This document shows, in pieces, positions 5,607 through 51,730 of a DNA stretch of 64,000 nt (position 1 is its first letter; every line of letters begins with the position of its first letter). The notes under the pieces were generated by a model that saw only the letters and a program-made list of their open reading frames with translations, made no database searches and had not been told where the DNA came from. The DNA lies in contig NZ_JH556659.1 of assembly GCF_000179595.2 (NCBI RefSeq), positions 99,456 to 163,455 on the forward strand. Reading direction: 5' to 3'. Made by a program: the position numbers and the translations under genes. Source of the stretch: Acetivibrio cellulolyticus CD2 (GTDB taxonomy: Bacteria; Bacillota; Clostridia; Acetivibrionales; Acetivibrionaceae).

Positions 5607-8099
5607 ATGAAAGTCAAAGAAGTAAGATTTTTGGTTTATTTGATCATTGTTGCAATGTGTTCATCCTGTTTTACGTTTGTTGCACTTGCAGCTGATAAAC
5701 CTACAGTCTATATTGCAGGAGATTCAACAGTCCAGACTTATGGTTCCAGCCAAGCACCACAGCAGGGATGGGGGCAAAGGATTGCAGAATTTTTTACTAG
5801 TGATGTTGTTTTTGTTAACAAAGCAATTGGCGGAAGAAGTTCAAAGTCTTATATAGATGAAGGGCGTCTGAAAGAAATTCTAAATGTTATAAAATCTGGA
5901 GATTATTTATTTTTTCAATGGGGTATAAATGATAGATATAAAAATGACACATCCAGATATACAGATCCTAAAACCACATTTAGAACTTATCTGAAAATGT
6001 ACATAGATGGTGCAAAAAATAAAGGAGCTATCCCGGTAATAATAACACCTACTACCAGGTTTGATTATTCAAATGGCTCATTTCAGAATGACTTCAAGGA
6101 TTATTGTACAGCAGCAAAAGAAGTTGCAGCAGAGACAAATACTAAAATTATAGACTTGCAGACAGCAGCGTTAGATTATTTAAATAAAATAGGGTATAAC
6201 GAAGCTTTGAAGCTGTACATGCCAAATGATGTGCTTCATTTTAATGATAAGGGGGCATATCAAATGGCAAGACTTGTGTCGGAGGGAGTTAGTGGATTAG
6301 ATTTACCAATTTCAGCATATGTTAAAGGTGGAGCTACCAAAACTCCAATTGTAGTATCTACATCTACACCTGTAGCTACTCCTGTAATTAATTCGCCCAA
6401 GCCGTTAACAATCGCAATATATGGAGATTTAAATGGTGATACATTTGTAGACTCAATCGATTTTGCACTCATGAGAAGATATTTGCTTGGATTTATTAGT
6501 GTTTTTCCTTATTCTAATGGTCAGGTGGCAGGTGATGTGGATGGAAATGGTAACATAAACTCTATGGACTTTGCATTTATGCGGCAATTTCTGTTGGGAA
6601 TCATACATAAGTTTCCTGCAGAGGATAATACACTTGTAACACCCACACCTGGAAATAACACGTCTTTATACCAGGCAGAGGATGGAAAACTCTATAAAGC
6701 AGTTACAGAAACTACTAATTCAGGGTATACCGGAACAAGTTATGTCAATTATGATAATGAAATCGGGGGATATATTGAATGGAATGTTAATGTAAGCACA
6801 GCCGGAATATATACTATAACATTAAGATATGCACATGGTGGAGCTGACGATAGGCCTTTAGAACTAAGCATCAACTCTAAGTCCACCAGCGCCAGCCTAG
6901 ACCTGTTTGCAACTGGGAGCTGGTCTACATGGGCTGAAGAAAGCATGATTATTGAACTTAATAAGGGAAATAATGTAATCAGAGCTACAAGTATTAACGC
7001 TAGTGGAGGACCCAATTTAGACTATATTAAGATAGAACCGTCCAATATTACAACAACACCATCACAAACATCTGCAATATCAACACCTACAGCGACAACA
7101 CCTCCATCCAGTAATGACGGACCTGCTGTAGATCCTTCATTAATCAGCAAACTTACAGGAACAAACCCTATAAAATTTCATATGGATGTGCAACCAGGAA
7201 ATTATGATGTTACAGTAGTTTTTGGTGATGCTAATTCAGCGAGTTCTACAAATATAGAGGGTGAAACTCGCAGACCAATGCTAGGTACAATAACAACAAG
7301 TGCTGGAACTTTTTCAAGACAAACATTTACTATAAACGTCAGAAATCCTGAAGGACAACCAACCGGTCAGGGGGGCACAGGAACATCAGGACTTGATTTG
7401 GTATTCTCAGGCTCTAATCCAAAAGTAAATGGTATTGGAGTTGTCAAATCAGAAAATCCAAGTATGATTTATATAGCAGGAGATTCTACTGTATGTGATC
7501 AACCGAGTAGCCCTTTTACAGGGTGGGGTCAGGTGCTTCCTCAGTATTTCAAGCTCGGATTGTGTATTGCAAACTATGGTGACTCAGGAGAAAACTCAGG
7601 AAGTTTCCTGAGCAATAAAGTCCTCTTCCCAGCAATAGAACAACAACTGAAAAAAGGTGACTATGTATTTATTCAGCTTGGACATAATGATAAAACTACT
7701 TCAGCTAGTGCATTTAAGACAAATATAACTAGCCTTGTTACAAGAACCAAGGATAAAGGTGCTATCCCAGTATTGATTTCGCCACCTGTAAGAAGGTTAT
7801 TTAATTCTGATAACAAAACTCTATCCAATACAGCTATTCACATAAATGGTGCAGGTGCAAACCTTCCTGCTATTATGAAAGAGGTAGCAACTGCTAATAG
7901 TATAGATTATATTGATTTGACAGGTGAGAGTAAAAAGTTGGTTGAATCTCTTGGAGTCAACGATTCAAAGAAACTGTTCTTAACTAATGAATCTGGTGAC
8001 AACACACATTTTTCAAGCTATGGTGCAAATGAAATGGCTAAAATAGTTATTAATAATATGAAAACTCTAAAGATGCCTCAAGTATCGAAACTTAGATAA
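5607..8099 (+). CDS. Cellulosomal two-domain SGNH (CE12-type) esterase with internal dockerin
   Basis: 830 residues. Order: signal peptide (1-28, ending ALA); SGNH domain 1 (about 32-232) with GDS (Ser40), GGRSS, GIND and DVLHFND; type I dockerin with two calcium-loop repeats at about 273-295 and 309-331; a CBM6/CBM35-like domain (about 352-477); a Thr/Pro linker; a beta-rich domain (about 508-618); SGNH domain 2 (about 622-825) with GDSTV (Ser627), GDSGEN, GHND and DNTHFS. The family deacetylates pectin or xylan side chains (rhamnogalacturonan acetylesterase-like). The dockerin would plug it into scaffoldin cohesins outside the cell. Both active sites look complete. The RBS is gaggggg before the ATG. 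A mid-protein dockerin is less common than a C-terminal one. Confidence 0.9.
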   Translation: MKVKEVRFLVYLIIVAMCSSCFTFVALAADKPTVYIAGDSTVQTYGSSQAPQQGWGQRIAEFFTSDVVFVNKAIGGRSSKSYIDEGRLKEILNVIKSGDYLFFQWGINDRYKNDTSRYTDPKTTFRTYLKMYIDGAKNKGAIPVIITPTTRFDYSNGSFQNDFKDYCTAAKEVAAETNTKIIDLQTAALDYLNKIGYNEALKLYMPNDVLHFNDKGAYQMARLVSEGVSGLDLPISAYVKGGATKTPIVVSTSTPVATPVINSPKPLTIAIYGDLNGDTFVDSIDFALMRRYLLGFISVFPYSNGQVAGDVDGNGNINSMDFAFMRQFLLGIIHKFPAEDNTLVTPTPGNNTSLYQAEDGKLYKAVTETTNSGYTGTSYVNYDNEIGGYIEWNVNVSTAGIYTITLRYAHGGADDRPLELSINSKSTSASLDLFATGSWSTWAEESMIIELNKGNNVIRATSINASGGPNLDYIKIEPSNITTTPSQTSAISTPTATTPPSSNDGPAVDPSLISKLTGTNPIKFHMDVQPGNYDVTVVFGDANSASSTNIEGETRRPMLGTITTSAGTFSRQTFTINVRNPEGQPTGQGGTGTSGLDLVFSGSNPKVNGIGVVKSENPSMIYIAGDSTVCDQPSSPFTGWGQVLPQYFKLGLCIANYGDSGENSGSFLSNKVLFPAIEQQLKKGDYVFIQLGHNDKTTSASAFKTNITSLVTRTKDKGAIPVLISPPVRRLFNSDNKTLSNTAIHINGAGANLPAIMKEVATANSIDYIDLTGESKKLVESLGVNDSKKLFLTNESGDNTHFSSYGANEMAKIVINNMKTLKMPQVSKLR

Positions 8100-13019: not shown

Positions 13020-13930
13020 TAGGAATAGGTAAGGTTTTGACGTAATAGCCACCTTTTCCCCTCCTCCAAACCGGACAGGAAACTTTCACTTCATCCGGCT
13101 TTCCAAGAAACCAACCTACTTGCCTTCCCCGGCTTTCGACTTCCTTCTACCTCACGATAGTTGGATGCTTCAGTTTAAAACTTTAAGCTTTTTCTGGTAT
13201 TTTAGAATCTTCAATTTCATTTTTGAGTTTATTCCTTGTGGTATCTCTCCACTTTGTACTATCTTTAGACAATTATAACAAAACCCCATGCTGAATTTGG
13301 AACCTTGTTTATTTTATCAAGGGGTAATGCTAGCAGTTCATAGCCGAGAAATTTAACTCTGTTTTCTTCAAGGCTTGTTATCAATGTCTTTTCTTTGGAA
13401 AGGTTTAATTTCAACCTATATTTGTAGTACTTTTGCAAGTATTTCAATATTCGAGTTGCTTCATTTATCATCGTGGTCATTATTAACCAATCATCACAAT
13501 ACCGTATCAAACACTTTGGAACTATACCTTTTCTTTTCAGGGCTCTTCTGGAATAGTCTTCTTTCTTATGTTTTGATTTTGGATGATGATACATCCTTCC
13601 AAGCATCCAGTCAAAATCATTAAGGTATACATTGGCAAGTAATGGGGATATGCATCCACCTTGGACTGTTCCCTTTTCTGTTTGGAACTTCTCTTTATCG
13701 TATACATAACCGGCAATTAGCATTTTCTTAATCATTTCGATTATTCTTTTATCCTTTACACCTATCCTATATAGCTTTCTTAGAAGTATCCTGTGATTGA
13801 TGTTGTAAAATATCCTTCAATGCCTCCTTCTATATCTATTATCGGCTTTTGTGGTGTCTTGAGGTTTATGAGTGTTTTTGCAAATGTCATTGCATGGAAT
13901 GAGAGACAAACTTCGTTTACTAACAAACAG
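13020..13930 (-). mobile_element. Group II intron remnant, minus strand (3' part)
   Basis: Read on the minus strand, the order is: 5'-truncated reverse transcriptase (13930-13265), a degenerate stretch, then a domain V/VI-like RNA end. The domain V part reads aaagccggatgaagtgaaag with tcctgtccggttt closing the hairpin (about 13070-13106), followed by a domain VI-like stem ending near 13020. The 5' half of the intron and the start of the RT are missing. It therefore cannot splice or retrohome alone. Confidence 0.75.
13265..13930 (-). pseudogene. Group II intron reverse transcriptase fragment
   Basis: The main open part (13735-13265) holds RT core motifs: GTVQGGCISPLLANVYLND, then LIRYCDDWLI with the catalytic YxDD box, then LSKEKTLI and KFLGYELL. 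Upstream, a frameshift near 13800 separates it from the preceding piece, which continues in another frame as NINHRILLRKLYRIGVKDK. The finger region before it and the C-terminal maturase domain are absent. Non-functional. Confidence 0.88.
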
Positions 13931-13939
13931 AAATAATGG

Positions 13940-14281
13940 TTGGGGAATGATTACCGAATACAAAAACTTAAGGAGTTTGTTAGAGGATGGATTAACTACT
14001 TTAGTGAGGCGGAGATGAAGAAATTAGTAGGAGAAACTGACGAATGGCTACGAAGAAGAATTAGGGCTATCTATTGGAAACAATGGAAGAAGGTTAAAAC
14101 GAGGTATCGCATGCTGAAAGCGTTGAAACTACCAGAAGGTAAGGTGCACGAAATGGCAAACTGTCGCAAGGGTTGTTGGAGAGCGGCGAAGATGCTAAAC
14201 GGTGCACTAACAAATAAAATAATAGCCAGATTGGGGTATATCACCATGTCTGACTATTATCTGAAAATCTGTGAAAACTGA
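13940..14281 (+). pseudogene. Group II intron maturase domain fragment (plus strand)
   Basis: 113 residues of the group II intron maturase-specific (GIIM) domain: QKLKEFVRGWINYF, DEWLRRRIRAIYWKQWKK, then ANCRKGCWRAA, ending IARLGYITMSDYYLK. This is the C-terminal ~110 residues of an intron-encoded protein of about 450-600 residues. The RT domain that should precede it is missing; instead the sequence meets the opposite-strand RT remnant at about 13930. The ATG at 13940 is probably fortuitous. Confidence 0.88.
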
Positions 14282-41554: not shown

Positions 41555-42688
41555 ATGATAGAAAAGTACGACAAAATAATTATAGGCGCAGGTTTGTATG
41601 GGTTATATTCTGCCCTTTTTTGCGGACAAAAAGGACAACATGTGCTTGTGCTAGAATGCGACCCTACACCTTTTCGAAGAGCGACTTACATTAACCAGGC
41701 AAGGGTGCATCAGGGATATCATTATCCAAGATCAATATCTACTGCGATGAAGTCAGCTGGATATTTTGAAAGATTTAGTGAAGACTATGGATTTTGTATT
41801 AACAGAGAATTTAACAAAGTTTACGCCACATCAAGACAATATTCATGGTCGAATGGCGAACAATTTAAGAACTTTTGTAAAGCAGCAAAAATTCAATGTG
41901 AGGAATTGCATCCGAAAAGATTTTTTAAGAAGGGTATGTGTGATGGTGCGTTTCTTACTAAAGAATATACATATGATGCGACGATTTTGAAGGATTACTT
42001 CATAGGCAAATTATCTAGTATGAGTAATGTGAAAATCCAGTATGGAATCAATATACAAAGAGTAGAACAACAACCAAATTGCTACGTGATTCTAACAGAT
42101 GATGGTAAAAATTATCAGACAGAATTCCTTTTGAATGCTACATATGCAGCGACTAATCAGATATTAGAAATGGTGGGTTTTGAAAAATTCAAAATAAAGT
42201 ATGAACTATGTGAAATTATTTTATGTGATGTTAATGACAGATTGAAACAATATGGTTTTACCATAATGGACGGTCCTTTCTTTTCAATTATACCTTTTGG
42301 AAAAACGGGCTTACATTCTCTTACGTCTGTTACGTTTACGCCGCATACTACCAGCTCTGACGAACTCCCAACATTTGCATGTCAAAAAGAAAGCAATGGA
42401 AATTGTTCTACAAAACGCTTAGGAAACTGCAATGACTGTCCTGCAAAACCAGAAACTGCATTTCCCTATATGGCAAATCTAGCAAGAAAATATCTTAAAG
42501 ATGAATATGGCTTTGAATATAGAAATTCTCTGTTTTCAATGAAGCCAATATTGATAAGCTCTGAAATAGATGATTCTAGACCTACAGTAATAAGAACATA
42601 TTCTAAGAATCCTACTTTTGTAGGTGTTCTGTCGGGAAAAATTAATACAGTTTACGACTTAGACGAGGTGCTAGGTGATGAAAAATAA
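41555..42688 (+). CDS. FAD-dependent oxidoreductase (DAO-like)
   Basis: 377 residues from the ATG at 41555. N-terminal dinucleotide site IIIGAGLYGLYSA (GxGxxG at 11-16), then INQARVHQGYHYPRS, which is the flavin-loop region of the DAO family. A Cys cluster (CQKESNGNCSTKRLGNC then DCPAK, about 280-300) may bind metal, which is unusual for DAO proteins. It begins a tight four-gene operon with a polyprenyl-type glycosyltransferase, a Rossmann reductase and a TIM-barrel isomerase. It probably oxidises or tailors a sugar or its lipid-linked form. Confidence 0.8.
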   Translation: MIEKYDKIIIGAGLYGLYSALFCGQKGQHVLVLECDPTPFRRATYINQARVHQGYHYPRSISTAMKSAGYFERFSEDYGFCINREFNKVYATSRQYSWSNGEQFKNFCKAAKIQCEELHPKRFFKKGMCDGAFLTKEYTYDATILKDYFIGKLSSMSNVKIQYGINIQRVEQQPNCYVILTDDGKNYQTEFLLNATYAATNQILEMVGFEKFKIKYELCEIILCDVNDRLKQYGFTIMDGPFFSIIPFGKTGLHSLTSVTFTPHTTSSDELPTFACQKESNGNCSTKRLGNCNDCPAKPETAFPYMANLARKYLKDEYGFEYRNSLFSMKPILISSEIDDSRPTVIRTYSKNPTFVGVLSGKINTVYDLDEVLGDEK

Positions 42689-43613
42689 AGAGAAAAATTT
42701 TGTATCCGCTATTATATATGTACATAATAAAGAGAATAGAATCGAAAGATTTTTAAAAACTATCGTTTCTGTTTTAGAAGATAATTTCGAAAACTCTGAG
42801 ATTATCTGTGTTAATGACAATTCTAATGATGAAAGCATACAGAAAATCAAAGCGGTGAGCGCACAGGCAAAGAGCACAAGTATATCAGTACTCAATATGA
42901 GTTATTTCCATGGCCTTGAAATGTCTATGAATGCAGGAATGGACTTAGCAATAGGGGATTTTGTGTTCGAGTTTGATTCCACAACAATGGACTATGATGT
43001 GGAAGAGATTATGAAAATATATAGACGTTCTCTTGAAGGCTATGACATTGTAAGTGCATCTCCAAATAAGAAAAAGAAAATTTCTTCTAGTATCTTTTAT
43101 TTTGTATTTGATAAATTTACTGATCTTTCATATAAGATGACTACAGAAAGTTTTCGCATTTTAAGCCGCCGGGTGATCAATCGCATTAGCAGTATGAATA
43201 AGACAGTTCCATATAGGAAAGCAATTTATGCAAATTGTGGTTTAAAAACAGATAGTATTATTTATGAAGTAAAGAAGACCGATTCAACAGCTGATAAAAA
43301 AGAACATAAGTATAGAAGAGGATTGGCGACAGATTCATTAATTCTTTTTACGGATGTGGGATATAGATTTTCCACATTAATGACCTTTTTTATGATGCTT
43401 ATGACAGTCTTTATGGTCATATATTCCCTGGTTATCTATTGCACAGGCACTCCGGTAGAAGGTTGGACAACTACAATTCTTTTCCTCTCAGTTGCATTCT
43501 TTGGTTTGTTTGCTATTTTGACTATTGTTATTAAATACCTGCAGCTTCTAATTGAACTGGTATTCAAGAGAAAAAGATATAGTTTTGAAAGCATTGAAAA
43601 ATTAACGAAGTAG
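42678..43613 (+). CDS. GtrB-like family 2 glycosyltransferase
   Basis: 311 residues. GT2 domain (about 8-225) with SAIIYVHNKENRIERFLKTI, VNDNSNDES and a metal-site-like EFDSTTMDYD. Two C-terminal TM helices (about 233-254 and 265-292) resemble GtrB/DPM1 enzymes that load a sugar onto polyprenyl phosphate. Overlaps the FAD gene by 11 bp (ATG 42678, RBS ctaggtg). No GtrA flippase or GtrC transferase is nearby. The donor sugar is unknown. Confidence 0.85.
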   Translation: MKNKEKNFVSAIIYVHNKENRIERFLKTIVSVLEDNFENSEIICVNDNSNDESIQKIKAVSAQAKSTSISVLNMSYFHGLEMSMNAGMDLAIGDFVFEFDSTTMDYDVEEIMKIYRRSLEGYDIVSASPNKKKKISSSIFYFVFDKFTDLSYKMTTESFRILSRRVINRISSMNKTVPYRKAIYANCGLKTDSIIYEVKKTDSTADKKEHKYRRGLATDSLILFTDVGYRFSTLMTFFMMLMTVFMVIYSLVIYCTGTPVEGWTTTILFLSVAFFGLFAILTIVIKYLQLLIELVFKRKRYSFESIEKLTK

Positions 43614-43626
43614 AGGAGAAAAAAGC

Positions 43627-44541
43627 ATGAAGGCTTTAGTAGGATATACCGGCTTTGTGGGAAGCAATATATATGCAGAAGGAACATTTGACGTAGCATA
43701 TAATTCAAAAAACATCGAAGAAGCTTATGGAACAAATCCGGACCTTTTAATATATGCAGGACTGCGGGCAGAAAAGTATCTAGCAAATAATGCACCCGAA
43801 AAAGATATGGAGTTAATTTTTCAGGCCGAAAAAAATATTGCTGCCATCAAGCCTAAGAAACTTGTGCTGATTTCAACAATAGATGTATTCAAATCTCCCA
43901 AAAATGTAGATGAAAATGCGGGTATTGATACAGAAAATTTGCATGCATATGGATACAACAGATATCAGTTAGAATGCTGGGTAAGGGAGAATTTCCCTGA
44001 CGCATTGATTATTCGCTTACCAGGTCTTTTTGGAGCAAATCTAAAAAAGAATTTTATTTATGATTTTATCAATTTGATTCCTTTTATGTTGAAGAAGGAA
44101 AAGATGGATGAACTTTCTTTGAAAGATCCGGACTTGAAGCAATATTATCAATTGCAGGATAATGGCTTTTATAAAGTAAGAAATCTAGAGGATACGGATA
44201 AAGGAATGCTTAAAGAAAAGTTCAGACGCCTTGGGTTTAGTGCCTTGAATTTCACAGATAGTAGGAGCATTTATCAATTTTATCCGCTGAAACGTTTATG
44301 GAGCGACATTCATATTGCTATTGACCACGATATCAAATTATGGCATCCTGCTACAGAACCTATTTCGGCAGGAGAACTTTATAAGTATCTTACAGGTGAA
44401 GAATTTATAAATGAACTTCCAGGAATGCCTGCAGATTATGATTTCAGGACGGTATATGATGCGATATTTGGCGGGGGTAGTGGATATATCTGTAATAAGA
44501 AAGAGGTTCTAAGAAGAGTCAAGGAGTATGTGGAACAATGA
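43627..44541 (+). CDS. NAD(P)-dependent sugar epimerase/reductase-like protein
   Basis: 304 residues with a short Rossmann start GYTGFVGSNI (6-15). The SDR-type STIDVF strand and YGYNR at 108-112 stand where YxxxK is expected, so the usual catalytic Lys is Arg. A C-terminal ~90-residue extension follows. The RBS is gaggag. It may be a sugar dehydratase/epimerase relative with altered or lost chemistry. Third gene of the operon. Confidence 0.75.
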   Translation: MKALVGYTGFVGSNIYAEGTFDVAYNSKNIEEAYGTNPDLLIYAGLRAEKYLANNAPEKDMELIFQAEKNIAAIKPKKLVLISTIDVFKSPKNVDENAGIDTENLHAYGYNRYQLECWVRENFPDALIIRLPGLFGANLKKNFIYDFINLIPFMLKKEKMDELSLKDPDLKQYYQLQDNGFYKVRNLEDTDKGMLKEKFRRLGFSALNFTDSRSIYQFYPLKRLWSDIHIAIDHDIKLWHPATEPISAGELYKYLTGEEFINELPGMPADYDFRTVYDAIFGGGSGYICNKKEVLRRVKEYVEQ

Positions 44542-44610
44542 CTACTAATATGTTGAAAAAAATCAAAGAAAATGATTTTTCAAGGGGAATTTTTGAAGGA
44601 GATTAGTTGG

Positions 44611-45402
44611 ATGAATTTATCAATATCTAATATTGCTTGGGAGTCGAAAGATGACTTACAGGTATATGATCTTATGAAGAAATATAAATATATTGGCCTT
44701 GAAATTGCTCCGACCAGAATATTTTCAGATGCACCTTACGAGAAGATTGCTGATGCTGTGACATGGAGTGAAAAGCTGAGGAAGGAATATGATTTTGTGA
44801 TTTCTTCTATGCAGTCAATCTGGTATGGCCGTCACGAAAAACTGTTCGGCTCAGACGAAGAAAGAAAGACGCTTTTAGATTATACAAAGATGTCCATAGA
44901 TTTTGCGGCGGCTGTAGGCTGTAAAAACCTTGTATTTGGATGCCCAAGAAATCGCAATTTACCGGAAGGGGCAAGTCAGGATATTGCTGTAGAGTTTTTT
45001 AAGGAATTAGGTGATTACGCGGCCCGCGTTGGAAACATCATAGGAATGGAGGCCAATCCCCCTATTTACAATACAAATTATATCAATGATACAACAGCTG
45101 CATTGGAGCTGATTCCACGTGTCAATTCAAAAGGTTTTCTGCTGAATTTAGATGTTGGAACTATGCTGCATAATAGAGAAAATGTATGCGAGCTTGTTGG
45201 ACAAGTAAAGTATATCAATCATGTTCATATCAGTGAACCTGGGCTTAAGACTATTATAAAACATGATTTACATCAAAAACTAAAAGATATTTTATTGGGT
45301 GAAGACTATCAAGGCTTTATTTCAATTGAAATGAGCAGGACAGAAGATTTGAAAGCTTTGGAAGAAGTTATGAAGTATGTCCAGGAGGTTTTTGCAGGAT
45401 GA
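44611..45402 (+). CDS. Sugar phosphate isomerase/epimerase (xylose-isomerase-like TIM barrel)
   Basis: 263 residues from the ATG at 44611 (aaggag upstream). TIM-barrel family AP_endonuc_2: GLEIAPTRIF, NLVFGCPRNRN, GMEANPPIYNTNYIND, LNLDVGTMLHN, HVHISEPGL and a closing FISIEMSR. The Glu, Asp and His residues fit the divalent metal site. It probably isomerises a sugar or inositol derivative. Last gene of the four-gene operon. Confidence 0.85.
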   Translation: MNLSISNIAWESKDDLQVYDLMKKYKYIGLEIAPTRIFSDAPYEKIADAVTWSEKLRKEYDFVISSMQSIWYGRHEKLFGSDEERKTLLDYTKMSIDFAAAVGCKNLVFGCPRNRNLPEGASQDIAVEFFKELGDYAARVGNIIGMEANPPIYNTNYINDTTAALELIPRVNSKGFLLNLDVGTMLHNRENVCELVGQVKYINHVHISEPGLKTIIKHDLHQKLKDILLGEDYQGFISIEMSRTEDLKALEEVMKYVQEVFAG

Positions 45403-45520
45403 TTTATGAGAAACAACCGAAGCAAGGAAGGTAAATATGCAATGAGAGAGTCACTTCGGAAAAATATGGAGTACAAACAGATGGCCTGCTCTTGACCTAA
45501 AAGACTATCCTATTCTTATA

Positions 45521-50296: not shown

Positions 50297-51730
50297 TCAA
50301 GCGATTAAAGGTTTTAAACTACGTATATACTTGTGCTCATGAATTTTATCTGCAAGTATTACAGTAATTAGTTGTGTGATACCTGCGAGATATAAATCTG
50401 CTTTAATAGTTAGGTTGTCTCTTGTTTTAAGATTACCACAGGCCATAGGCTCCTTAAGGTATTGAATGTTTTTTTCTACTACAGTCCTAATTTTGTAGTC
50501 AGAAATCCATTCGTCAGAGCCTCTAATCACACCTGGATACATGCGTTTATCCATGGCAGGAGATGTGAAGGTTACACGACCGCAAGGCTTGCCATTACAG
50601 GGGTTATCACAAGAAGTAACCCATTTACCTTTAATTAGTTTTGCCTGTGGGCACCGCCATTTGAATCTTTCGATTCTTCCTTCTTCTCGGCTCCAGCCAT
50701 TTGGTTTCATTGGTACAGAAGAATCTTTAGAGCAAAGTGGCCAACCATCATCATTGTATTTAATAGGCGGAAGATTAGGGTTTGAATTTCTGGAATTCAA
50801 AGGTATTAGAGCCCTTTGAAACTTGAGTTCATCTAAGAGCAATGTGTAGGTATCGCACGTATCAAAAATAGAATCACCAAGGAAAGTGCTTGGTTTAAAA
50901 TCCGGGTGAAGAGTAAAGAAGTCTGCAAATACTGGTTTAAGGGATTTGGAATCACTAATAGATTTATCTTCGTCTGGAGAATCCGATTTTTTCTCAATGT
51001 GCATTTCAGGATGTTTCTTTTTGAAGTCACTATCCAAAAAGGCAATATGTCTTGGAATGCCGAGGCCGTTGGTGATAATGCCAAACTTGTAGACATAGCA
51101 GAAGTAGCCGTTTATGTAGAGTTGCTTGATTTCTTTGTTTGCAGAGGCTGAAGAAGGCATAAGGCTATAAGCCATTTTATATACATCGACATCAGGCTTG
51201 TCCTTGTAGAAAGCCTTGAGTTTTTTTATGATAGAATTTATGAACTTTGGGTTATTCTCAGTTACAAAGGTTTCAATACCTGAAGTATCATAAGCGATAG
51301 TGGATGCAAGAGTAGTGTTAATTTCCTGGCAAATAGGTTCTGTAATATCTACAAGGTGGTTAAAGAAGTTTTCCAGGTAAATAACGAAATCTTGTTTGAA
51401 CCGTGTAAACTGAGAGTTATGAGGGACGTCTGGAAGGCCACAGAATTCACGGGCTTCATGGCATAAATTAAGAAAAATAATGAGTAGCGAAACTGTAGGA
51501 ATGCCAAGAATTTTCTGCAGAACTAATGCTGAAAGCATTGAAGAGAGTGAATATTTACGGTCTCTCCCTAGAGTTTTGTGGTAAGACCAATAAAAATCCT
51601 GTGGTATAAGCGAAGATAAATCAAGATGTTGTGAGAGTAGCTTAAGAAATTTTGGCTTATTATTTTGAAAAACATCTTTACATTCTTCGAATGTGTCAGC
51701 AAAAGAAATTTGTTTATAAAGTTTTACCAT
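50297..51730 (-). CDS. DDE transposase, apparently intact
   Basis: 477 residues. An N-terminal helical domain with PHNSQFTRFKQDF is followed by the DDE core: TIAYDTSGIET (first Asp), FLGDSIFDTCDTY (second Asp) and a late YKIRTVVEKNIQYLKEP (Glu). A Cys-rich insert (SCDNPCNGKPCGR) sits before the last part. The architecture fits IS1182/ISNCY-like transposases; I do not assign a family firmly. Start ATG 51730 with gggg upstream. Terminal inverted repeats were not found by eye. Confidence 0.85.
   Translation of the reverse strand: MVKLYKQISFADTFEECKDVFQNNKPKFLKLLSQHLDLSSLIPQDFYWSYHKTLGRDRKYSLSSMLSALVLQKILGIPTVSLLIIFLNLCHEAREFCGLPDVPHNSQFTRFKQDFVIYLENFFNHLVDITEPICQEINTTLASTIAYDTSGIETFVTENNPKFINSIIKKLKAFYKDKPDVDVYKMAYSLMPSSASANKEIKQLYINGYFCYVYKFGIITNGLGIPRHIAFLDSDFKKKHPEMHIEKKSDSPDEDKSISDSKSLKPVFADFFTLHPDFKPSTFLGDSIFDTCDTYTLLLDELKFQRALIPLNSRNSNPNLPPIKYNDDGWPLCSKDSSVPMKPNGWSREEGRIERFKWRCPQAKLIKGKWVTSCDNPCNGKPCGRVTFTSPAMDKRMYPGVIRGSDEWISDYKIRTVVEKNIQYLKEPMACGNLKTRDNLTIKADLYLAGITQLITVILADKIHEHKYIRSLKPLIA

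Follow-up and report, generated by a model that had tools for sequence, protein, structure and literature searches.

Three-component glycosylation systems, including pentofuranose systems, are composed of a polyprenyl-phosphate sugar synthase, a flippase and a polytopic transferase-like protein, and the accessible part of Kelly et al. (2024; PMC11127046) also describes auxiliary epimerases that act on the lipid-linked sugar and ORF13, an analogue for editing at the lipid carrier. In the same part, DprE1/DprE2, which convert decaprenyl-phosphoryl ribose to arabinose, are presented as a flavin adenine dinucleotide (FAD) oxidase and a Rossmann reductase working in tandem on a polyprenyl-linked sugar, and the authors are aware of no epimerases of O-polysaccharide side-chain glycosylation beyond their own and those of the DprE1/E2 type. 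The YcjQ-YcjR-YcjS system of Escherichia coli, which is catabolic and soluble, converts a D-guloside to a D-glucoside via a 3-keto sugar and C4 epimerisation. We have compared with these systems a group of four genes in a stretch of 64,000 nucleotides (nt) from Acetivibrio cellulolyticus CD2 (contig NZ_JH556659.1), the whole of which is called the window; the genes encode an FAD oxidoreductase (FAD), a GtrB-like family 2 glycosyltransferase (GT), an RmlD-like Rossmann protein (ROS) and a TIM-barrel protein (TIM). Judged from its gene remnants, the window copy is a truncated member of a larger cassette, from which a second GT2 gene (F4) and probably a gene for a large membrane protein were lost at this locus. 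We give an even chance to the reading that a three-component (Gtr/Arn-type) cassette for extracytoplasmic glycosylation is represented in the window by its sugar-editing part and the GtrB-like partner.

The E. coli system shares with the proposed cassette the sequence of oxidising, epimerising and reducing steps, and YcjR is homologous to TIM. YcjQ and YcjS, which are annotated sugar dehydrogenases, belong to the Gfo/Idh/MocA family; two dehydrogenases of this type were not found in the window set, where FAD is a DAO protein and ROS an RmlD_sub_bind protein in a glycan-assembly cluster. DprE1 is a VAO-type flavoprotein, whereas the window FAD has a DAO/GlpD-type fold (PF01266), and a separate enzyme, TIM, would carry out the epimerisation. 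As far as the accessible description of DprE1/DprE2 goes, the pairing of an FAD oxidase with a Rossmann reductase follows the same logic as in the trio of FAD, TIM and ROS. ROS shares its fold and weak sequence similarity with RmlD (dTDP-4-dehydrorhamnose reductase), from which it differs in having YxxxR in place of YxxxK, and GT shares the GT2 domain and two C-terminal transmembrane (TM) helices with the polyprenyl-phosphate glucosyltransferase GtrB/sll0501, whereas its DxD motif is eroded. The complete cassette would have counterparts of the three components of the systems in PMC11127046, although its proposed loader is a DPMS-like GT2 in place of PPPRS, and the trio of a DAO-fold FAD protein, an AP_endonuc_2 TIM barrel and an RmlD-like reductase is not described in the accessible part of that paper; the window itself has neither flippase nor transferase, and F4 only as a stub. 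The first-pass annotation of the window had named no pathway with this exact set, and in keeping with this, neither a paper on the gene set nor a characterised match was found in the open-access literature.

The five-gene core and its copy in the window

The four-gene group of open reading frames (ORFs) at 41555-45402, which the first-pass annotation had described as a compact surface-sugar operon with overlapping or nearly abutting genes, is present with all frames intact, and small start corrections only were made (Table 1): GT starts at the ATG at 42678 and TIM at the ATG at 44611, with AAGGAG upstream. FAD and GT overlap by 11 nt, GT and ROS are 13 nt apart, and ROS and TIM are separated by 69 nt; both this gap and the 3' end contain gene remnants. 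The group as a complete, natural unit had to be rejected, since the stubs and the conservation of a five-gene core argue otherwise: a core of five genes, to which a large membrane protein is usually and a flippase sometimes added, forms the set of which the window copy is a truncated form. This truncation would explain the odd four-gene appearance of the window set.

In a scan of a genome collection with ROS, 141 stretches matched and gave 102 relatives, and the best 80 loci, mostly from Lachnospiraceae and other Clostridia, were used; this sample is anchored on ROS, so the frequency of sets without ROS is not readable from it. The fifth partner F4, a DPMS-like GT2, was recognised in 70 loci by ORF families around ROS. 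By tblastn, all five core genes were found in 67 of the 80 loci and in 51 of the 54 with long flanks, and the genes are thus conserved together. The order FAD-GT-ROS-TIM-F4 was found in 50 of the 81 rows with ROS called, in which the window and three further loci from genome searches are included. Pairwise distances were correlated in all ten gene pairs (Mantel r 0.72-0.84, with 0 of 200 permutations as high), a correlation that shared species history alone could produce. Among 398 genomes of the phylum, at E<=1e-30, FAD was detected in 4, ROS in 3 and F4 in 2; all three ROS genomes also carry FAD, and one genome (G310) has FAD without ROS, but its contig stops inside TIM. The rarity of the set means that little weight can be put on such co-occurrence in random genomes. 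Among 14 genomes from the family of the window's own, ROS and strong F4 matches coincide in the same three genomes, and the two relatives among these hold the full core (L129, L130), while 45 genomes from the family of G124 gave FAD in 2, ROS in 1 and F4 in 1. We consider it very probable that the conserved gene set is real and more than a chance grouping.

Two stubs tie the window copy to this set. The F4 stub overlaps the TIM stop in the same arrangement as in relatives, the DNA of three relatives (L016, L018 and L033) matches at the junction, and the residues MIYEKQ open 14 of the 70 F4 proteins and none of the 1210 remaining ORFs of these loci; this is strong evidence for a lost F4. In many relatives a large membrane-protein gene lies between ROS and TIM, and the 22-codon ORF found there in the window ends in FEGD; among the 38 large ORFs that relatives have at this place, 10 end in [EKS]GD, against a background of 2 of 252 other ORFs of at least 400 amino acids (aa). 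The 22-codon ORF is probably a remnant of the large membrane-protein gene, and a polytopic GT-C transferase would be represented at the window set by this stub only.

Table 1. Positions of the genes and gene remnants of the cassette copy in the window.
Feature	Position	Strand	Match or remark
FAD, DAO-type FAD oxidoreductase, 377 aa	41555..42688	+	PF01266 (DAO) 3.5e-10
Four-Cys cluster region of FAD (C276, C284, C292, C295)	42378..42440	+	close family only
GT, GtrB/sll0501-like GT2 with two C-terminal TM helices, 311 aa	42678..43613	+	PF00535 2.4e-12
ROS, RmlD-like Rossmann protein with YxxxR, 304 aa	43627..44541	+	PF04321 (RmlD_sub_bind) 2.2e-7
22-codon ORF MTTNMLKKIKENDFSRGIFEGD, probable remnant of large membrane-protein gene	44538..44606	+	start overlaps ROS stop
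TIM, AP_endonuc_2 TIM barrel, 263 aa	44611..45402	+	PF01261 7.7e-16
F4 remnant MIYEKQPKQGR*, second GT2	45399..45434	+	start overlaps TIM stop; F4-like part 45399-45419

A complete second cassette was not found in the same genome (G000), which gave one ROS match and one additional FAD match. The latter is a decayed C-terminal fragment of FAD with stops (G000:C3:316832-317008; L103:8833-8997), directly upstream of a gene for a 550-aa membrane protein that is GT-C-like and has a weak PMT_2 match (L103:7151-8803), and the two together are a second cassette site in the genome. An intact orphan homologue of F4, 71% identical to F4 of the relative L025, is also present (G000:C3:564698-565483; L092:9193-9984); its neighbours, both named by eye, are a LonB-like ATPase gene on one side and a BacA/UppP-like gene on the other. 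No flippase-type ORF was found among ORFs of at least 90 aa around the window set, the remainder of the genome not having been searched for flippases.

Properties of the proteins and distant versions of the cassette

None of the NCBIfam models reached its cut-off for FAD, GT, ROS or TIM, and domain matches to DUF374 and Presenilin were dismissed as noise. The AlphaFold2 model of FAD (pLDDT 88.9) gave its best structural alignment with E. coli GlpD (2r45; Z 31.7, root-mean-square deviation 3.0, 341 residues aligned), which is a secondary-alcohol dehydrogenase, and the motif R-x-H-x-G-[YF]-H-Y-P-R is present in 13 of 13 further homologues. From the model, FAD is proposed to be an oxidase of a sugar secondary hydroxyl; a DprE1-type flavoprotein was absent among the 50 structural matches listed, which alone excludes nothing. 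The extra Cys cluster pointed out in the first-pass annotation is present and conserved in the close family (at least 97% across 68 aligned members), and it is specific to this clade, being gone from 10 of the 13 further homologues and kept in three (L133, L134 and L135). A catalytic role of the cluster is disfavoured by these losses, and the chemistry is unlikely to depend on so clade-specific a feature; electron relay or transfer, stability or a structural metal site in the anaerobe clade are possible roles.

ROS was modelled with pLDDT 95.5 and aligned with the UDP-GlcNAc 4-epimerase 6dnt (Z 23.0) and RmlD 3sc6 (22.3), which are tied. Its score with TIGR01214, the RmlD equivalog model, was 25.2 bits and did not reach the cut-off of 224.05. 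The change from YxxxK to YxxxR that had been noticed in this protein is confirmed (Y108/R112). Its reading as an oddity of the window copy was rejected, as the motif is a signature of the ROS family, with conservation of at least 97% in 79 aligned members and YxxxR kept in 11 of 11 further homologues; the YxxxK catalytic motif of RmlD and the extended SDR proteins was not found as the family motif in these 79 aligned and 11 further members. ROS is a proposed ketone reductase.

The residues that bind the metal in sugar epimerases are present in TIM (E147, D181, H206 and E240) and are retained in 12 of 12 further homologues. Its profile matched 6wn6 (6.2e-7), tied with D-tagatose 3-epimerases, and comparison by hhalign with E. 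coli YcjR, annotated as 3-dehydro-D-guloside 4-epimerase, gave probability 97.0 and E 1.1e-10 over 219 columns, against probability 0.3 for the control YcjQ. We propose that TIM is a keto-sugar epimerase, a candidate function suggested by these matches.

Although GT had been taken for the polyprenyl loader, and its profile match to GtrB/sll0501 (PDB 5ekp, 5.5e-31) and predicted TM helices are as in that enzyme, its DxD has lost the second Asp (the window reads EFDST...D) and the motif is not retained in distant relatives; in the motif comparison, the canonical DAD was found only in a separate GtrB of L133. F4 resembles DPMS (5mlz, 1.3e-9), with matches to PpgS/AglJ below cut-off, and keeps its motif DGNxKD in 8 of 8 cases. 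GT as the loading enzyme is thus disfavoured and it is probably not the loader; because DxD is not kept while F4 keeps its motif, the comparison suggests a scaffold role or an unusual transferase activity for GT.

Distant versions of the cassette were collected by tblastn of FAD against 72,556 plasmids, which gave 12 records at 25-33% identity, and eight of the 12 were examined. By hidden Markov model (HMM), these eight plasmid loci have FAD and ROS in all cases and TIM and F4 in seven each, and Pseudomonadota plasmids carry the distant versions as operons. GtrA is annotated in five of the eight and SMR in one; a polytopic protein follows F4 or is fused to it in five (L139-L142 and L145), and in L143 an exosortase gene stands after F4 in place of the polytopic protein. 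In a Cereibacter plasmid (L142:9675-12146), F4 continues into a segment for which some ten TM helices are predicted, the fused protein being 823 aa long. L139 (NZ_MN657058.1) is a 10.8-kb Psychrobacter plasmid whose other annotated genes are for mobilisation and replication, and an open frame in it (L139:5407-6402), where the record annotates no gene, matches GT. The gene between TIM and FAD in L141 and L145 gave only weak matches to GT (probability 37-38). FAD, ROS and TIM were also found in three of three contigs of the viral collection, and this trio stays together at 25-46% identity. In L137, an IMG/VR contig, ROS and TIM are fused in one protein (6473-7987; 505 aa, with ROS at 9-243 and TIM at 252-476). 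In L133, an aldo/keto reductase gene (PF00248, 4.2e-59) lies between GT2 genes and TIM, and no ROS match was found in that genome. The region L133:7393-12147 is a divergent version, in which the aldo/keto reductase replaces ROS and a canonical GtrB replaces F4.

Large polytopic proteins are enriched at the core: of 365 genes near it or within it, 87 encode such proteins, as do 7 of 253 far ones (Fisher p 1e-14). A protein of at least 400 aa with at least seven predicted TM helices was found near the core in 65 of 77 loci. Representatives of these membrane proteins matched GtrII (F20, five loci), DUF6311 and DUF6020. An ArnE/F-like pair of small membrane proteins, below the NCBIfam cut-offs, lies near the core in 13 of the 77 loci.

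Proposed pathway and alternative readings

For the complete cassette, we infer the following order of reactions, together with the lipid stage, the sugar, the acceptor and the role of GT. F4 would load a hexose onto polyprenyl phosphate, FAD would turn one ring hydroxyl of the lipid-linked sugar into a ketone, the carbon adjacent to the ketone would be inverted by TIM via a metal-bound enediolate, and reduction by ROS would then give a polyprenyl-linked rare sugar. A flippase of GtrA or ArnE/F/SMR type would turn the lipid-linked sugar outward, and the large membrane protein would transfer the sugar to a surface polymer. GT could anchor FAD and the lipid-linked substrate to the membrane, which is the least supported step, and in the window genome the orphan F4 beside the BacA/UppP-like gene may supply the loading. 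The oxidising, epimerising and reducing chemistry, which we judge to be evenly balanced between right and wrong, is proposed because of the linkage of the trio, the ROS-TIM fusion, the substitution by an aldo/keto reductase, the homology with YcjR and the best alignment of FAD with GlpD; editing on the lipid carrier is proposed from the packing of F4 and flippases together with the trio and from the parallel with DprE1/E2 and ORF13. The earlier idea of an "oxidised or rearranged" sugar on a lipid carrier is therefore supported as to a sugar-editing cassette with a polyprenyl carrier, and would be narrowed to one that is oxidised, epimerised and reduced. The full reading, that a common hexose on polyprenyl phosphate is edited to a rare one by an oxidase, a metal epimerase like YcjR and a reductase with YxxxR, beside a non-catalytic GtrB-like scaffold, in a cassette that moves on plasmids and between phyla and forms the main cargo of the 10.8-kb Psychrobacter plasmid, is tentative and distinctly short of even. 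If true, it would provide a genetic handle on rare surface sugars of gut and rumen Lachnospiraceae and of marine Rhodobacterales and a hexose counterpart to the DprE1/DprE2 logic of mycobacteria; FAD, TIM, the YxxxR reductase and the DGNxKD GT2 together would be a search signature for sugar editing at the lipid stage. The exopolysaccharide of Butyrivibrio fibrisolvens has L-altrose, according to the accessible parts of PMC4392319 and PMC10794557; that the cassette might account for rare hexoses such as this one in Lachnospiraceae is speculation, and no observation connects it with L-altrose.

Several observations weigh against this pathway. Three of the 54 long-flank loci (L024, L043 and L065) have ROS without the full set, and one genome (G036) has FAD, GT, ROS and TIM with no F4 at E<=1e-30. 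The fold of FAD matches amine and amino-acid oxidases nearly equally well, Foldseek ranking D-arginine dehydrogenase first and sarcosine oxidase equally high, and its sequence match with GlpD spans only the FAD motif. YcjR and the D-tagatose 3-epimerases are equally close to TIM by profile, and one His of the D-tagatose 3-epimerase family is Thr, Ala, Gly or Asn in TIM homologues. GT was seen by HMM in just three of the seven plasmid loci in which both flanks of FAD were scanned. The tested membrane proteins mostly gave no Pfam match, so that their GT-C nature is derived from topology and a few matches, and a flippase was found in just 13 of 77 close loci.

The resemblance of the ROS fold to enzymes of nucleoside diphosphate (NDP) sugars also weighs against the lipid stage, being compatible with editing of a cytosolic NDP-sugar or sugar phosphate by FAD, TIM and ROS, after which both GT2s would use the finished rare NDP-sugar. 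Among the structural alignments of the ROS model, those with NDP-sugar epimerases and RmlD are the best, and no feature of lipid binding could be recognised in any protein of the trio; on the other hand, the nearest characterised relative of TIM uses glycosides or free ketoses rather than NDP-sugars, as far as its accessible description goes, and in the loci examined the Pseudomonadota trio is packed with a flippase and F4 and not with nucleotidyltransferases, although L133 and L143 do have nucleotidyltransferase genes nearby. We regard editing at the nucleotide-sugar stage as rather unlikely. TIM might also be a beta-eliminase or isomerase and not an epimerase, the final sugar staying oxidised or being cleaved, and DgpB-type chains named "D-tagatose 3-epimerase" are among its profile matches. 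A reductase, however, accompanies TIM in the loci examined, forms one protein with it in L137 and gives way to another reductase in L133, as would be expected of a transient ketone, and elimination would free the lipid carrier; such an activity of TIM is improbable.

It is only slightly short of an even matter that the four window genes are a functionless relic after the loss of F4 and the membrane protein. The two gene stubs in the window, the second, decayed FAD fragment with stops at G000:C3:316832-317008 and a nearby transposase gene (50297-51730, by eye) speak for such decay, whereas the four frames are intact with the conserved residues kept, an intact F4 homologue exists elsewhere in the genome, and the FAD fragment has a GT-C-like gene next to it.

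Other features of the window

Besides the transposase-like ORF at 50297-51730, a transposase-like fragment is present at 70-495, and the two, which were recognised by eye, suggest a mobile region. Fragments resembling the reverse transcriptase of a group II intron lie on opposite strands at 13265-14281, and a secreted protein of 830 aa, in which two SGNH/esterase-like parts are combined with dockerin-like repeats, is encoded at 5607-8099, both being named by eye.

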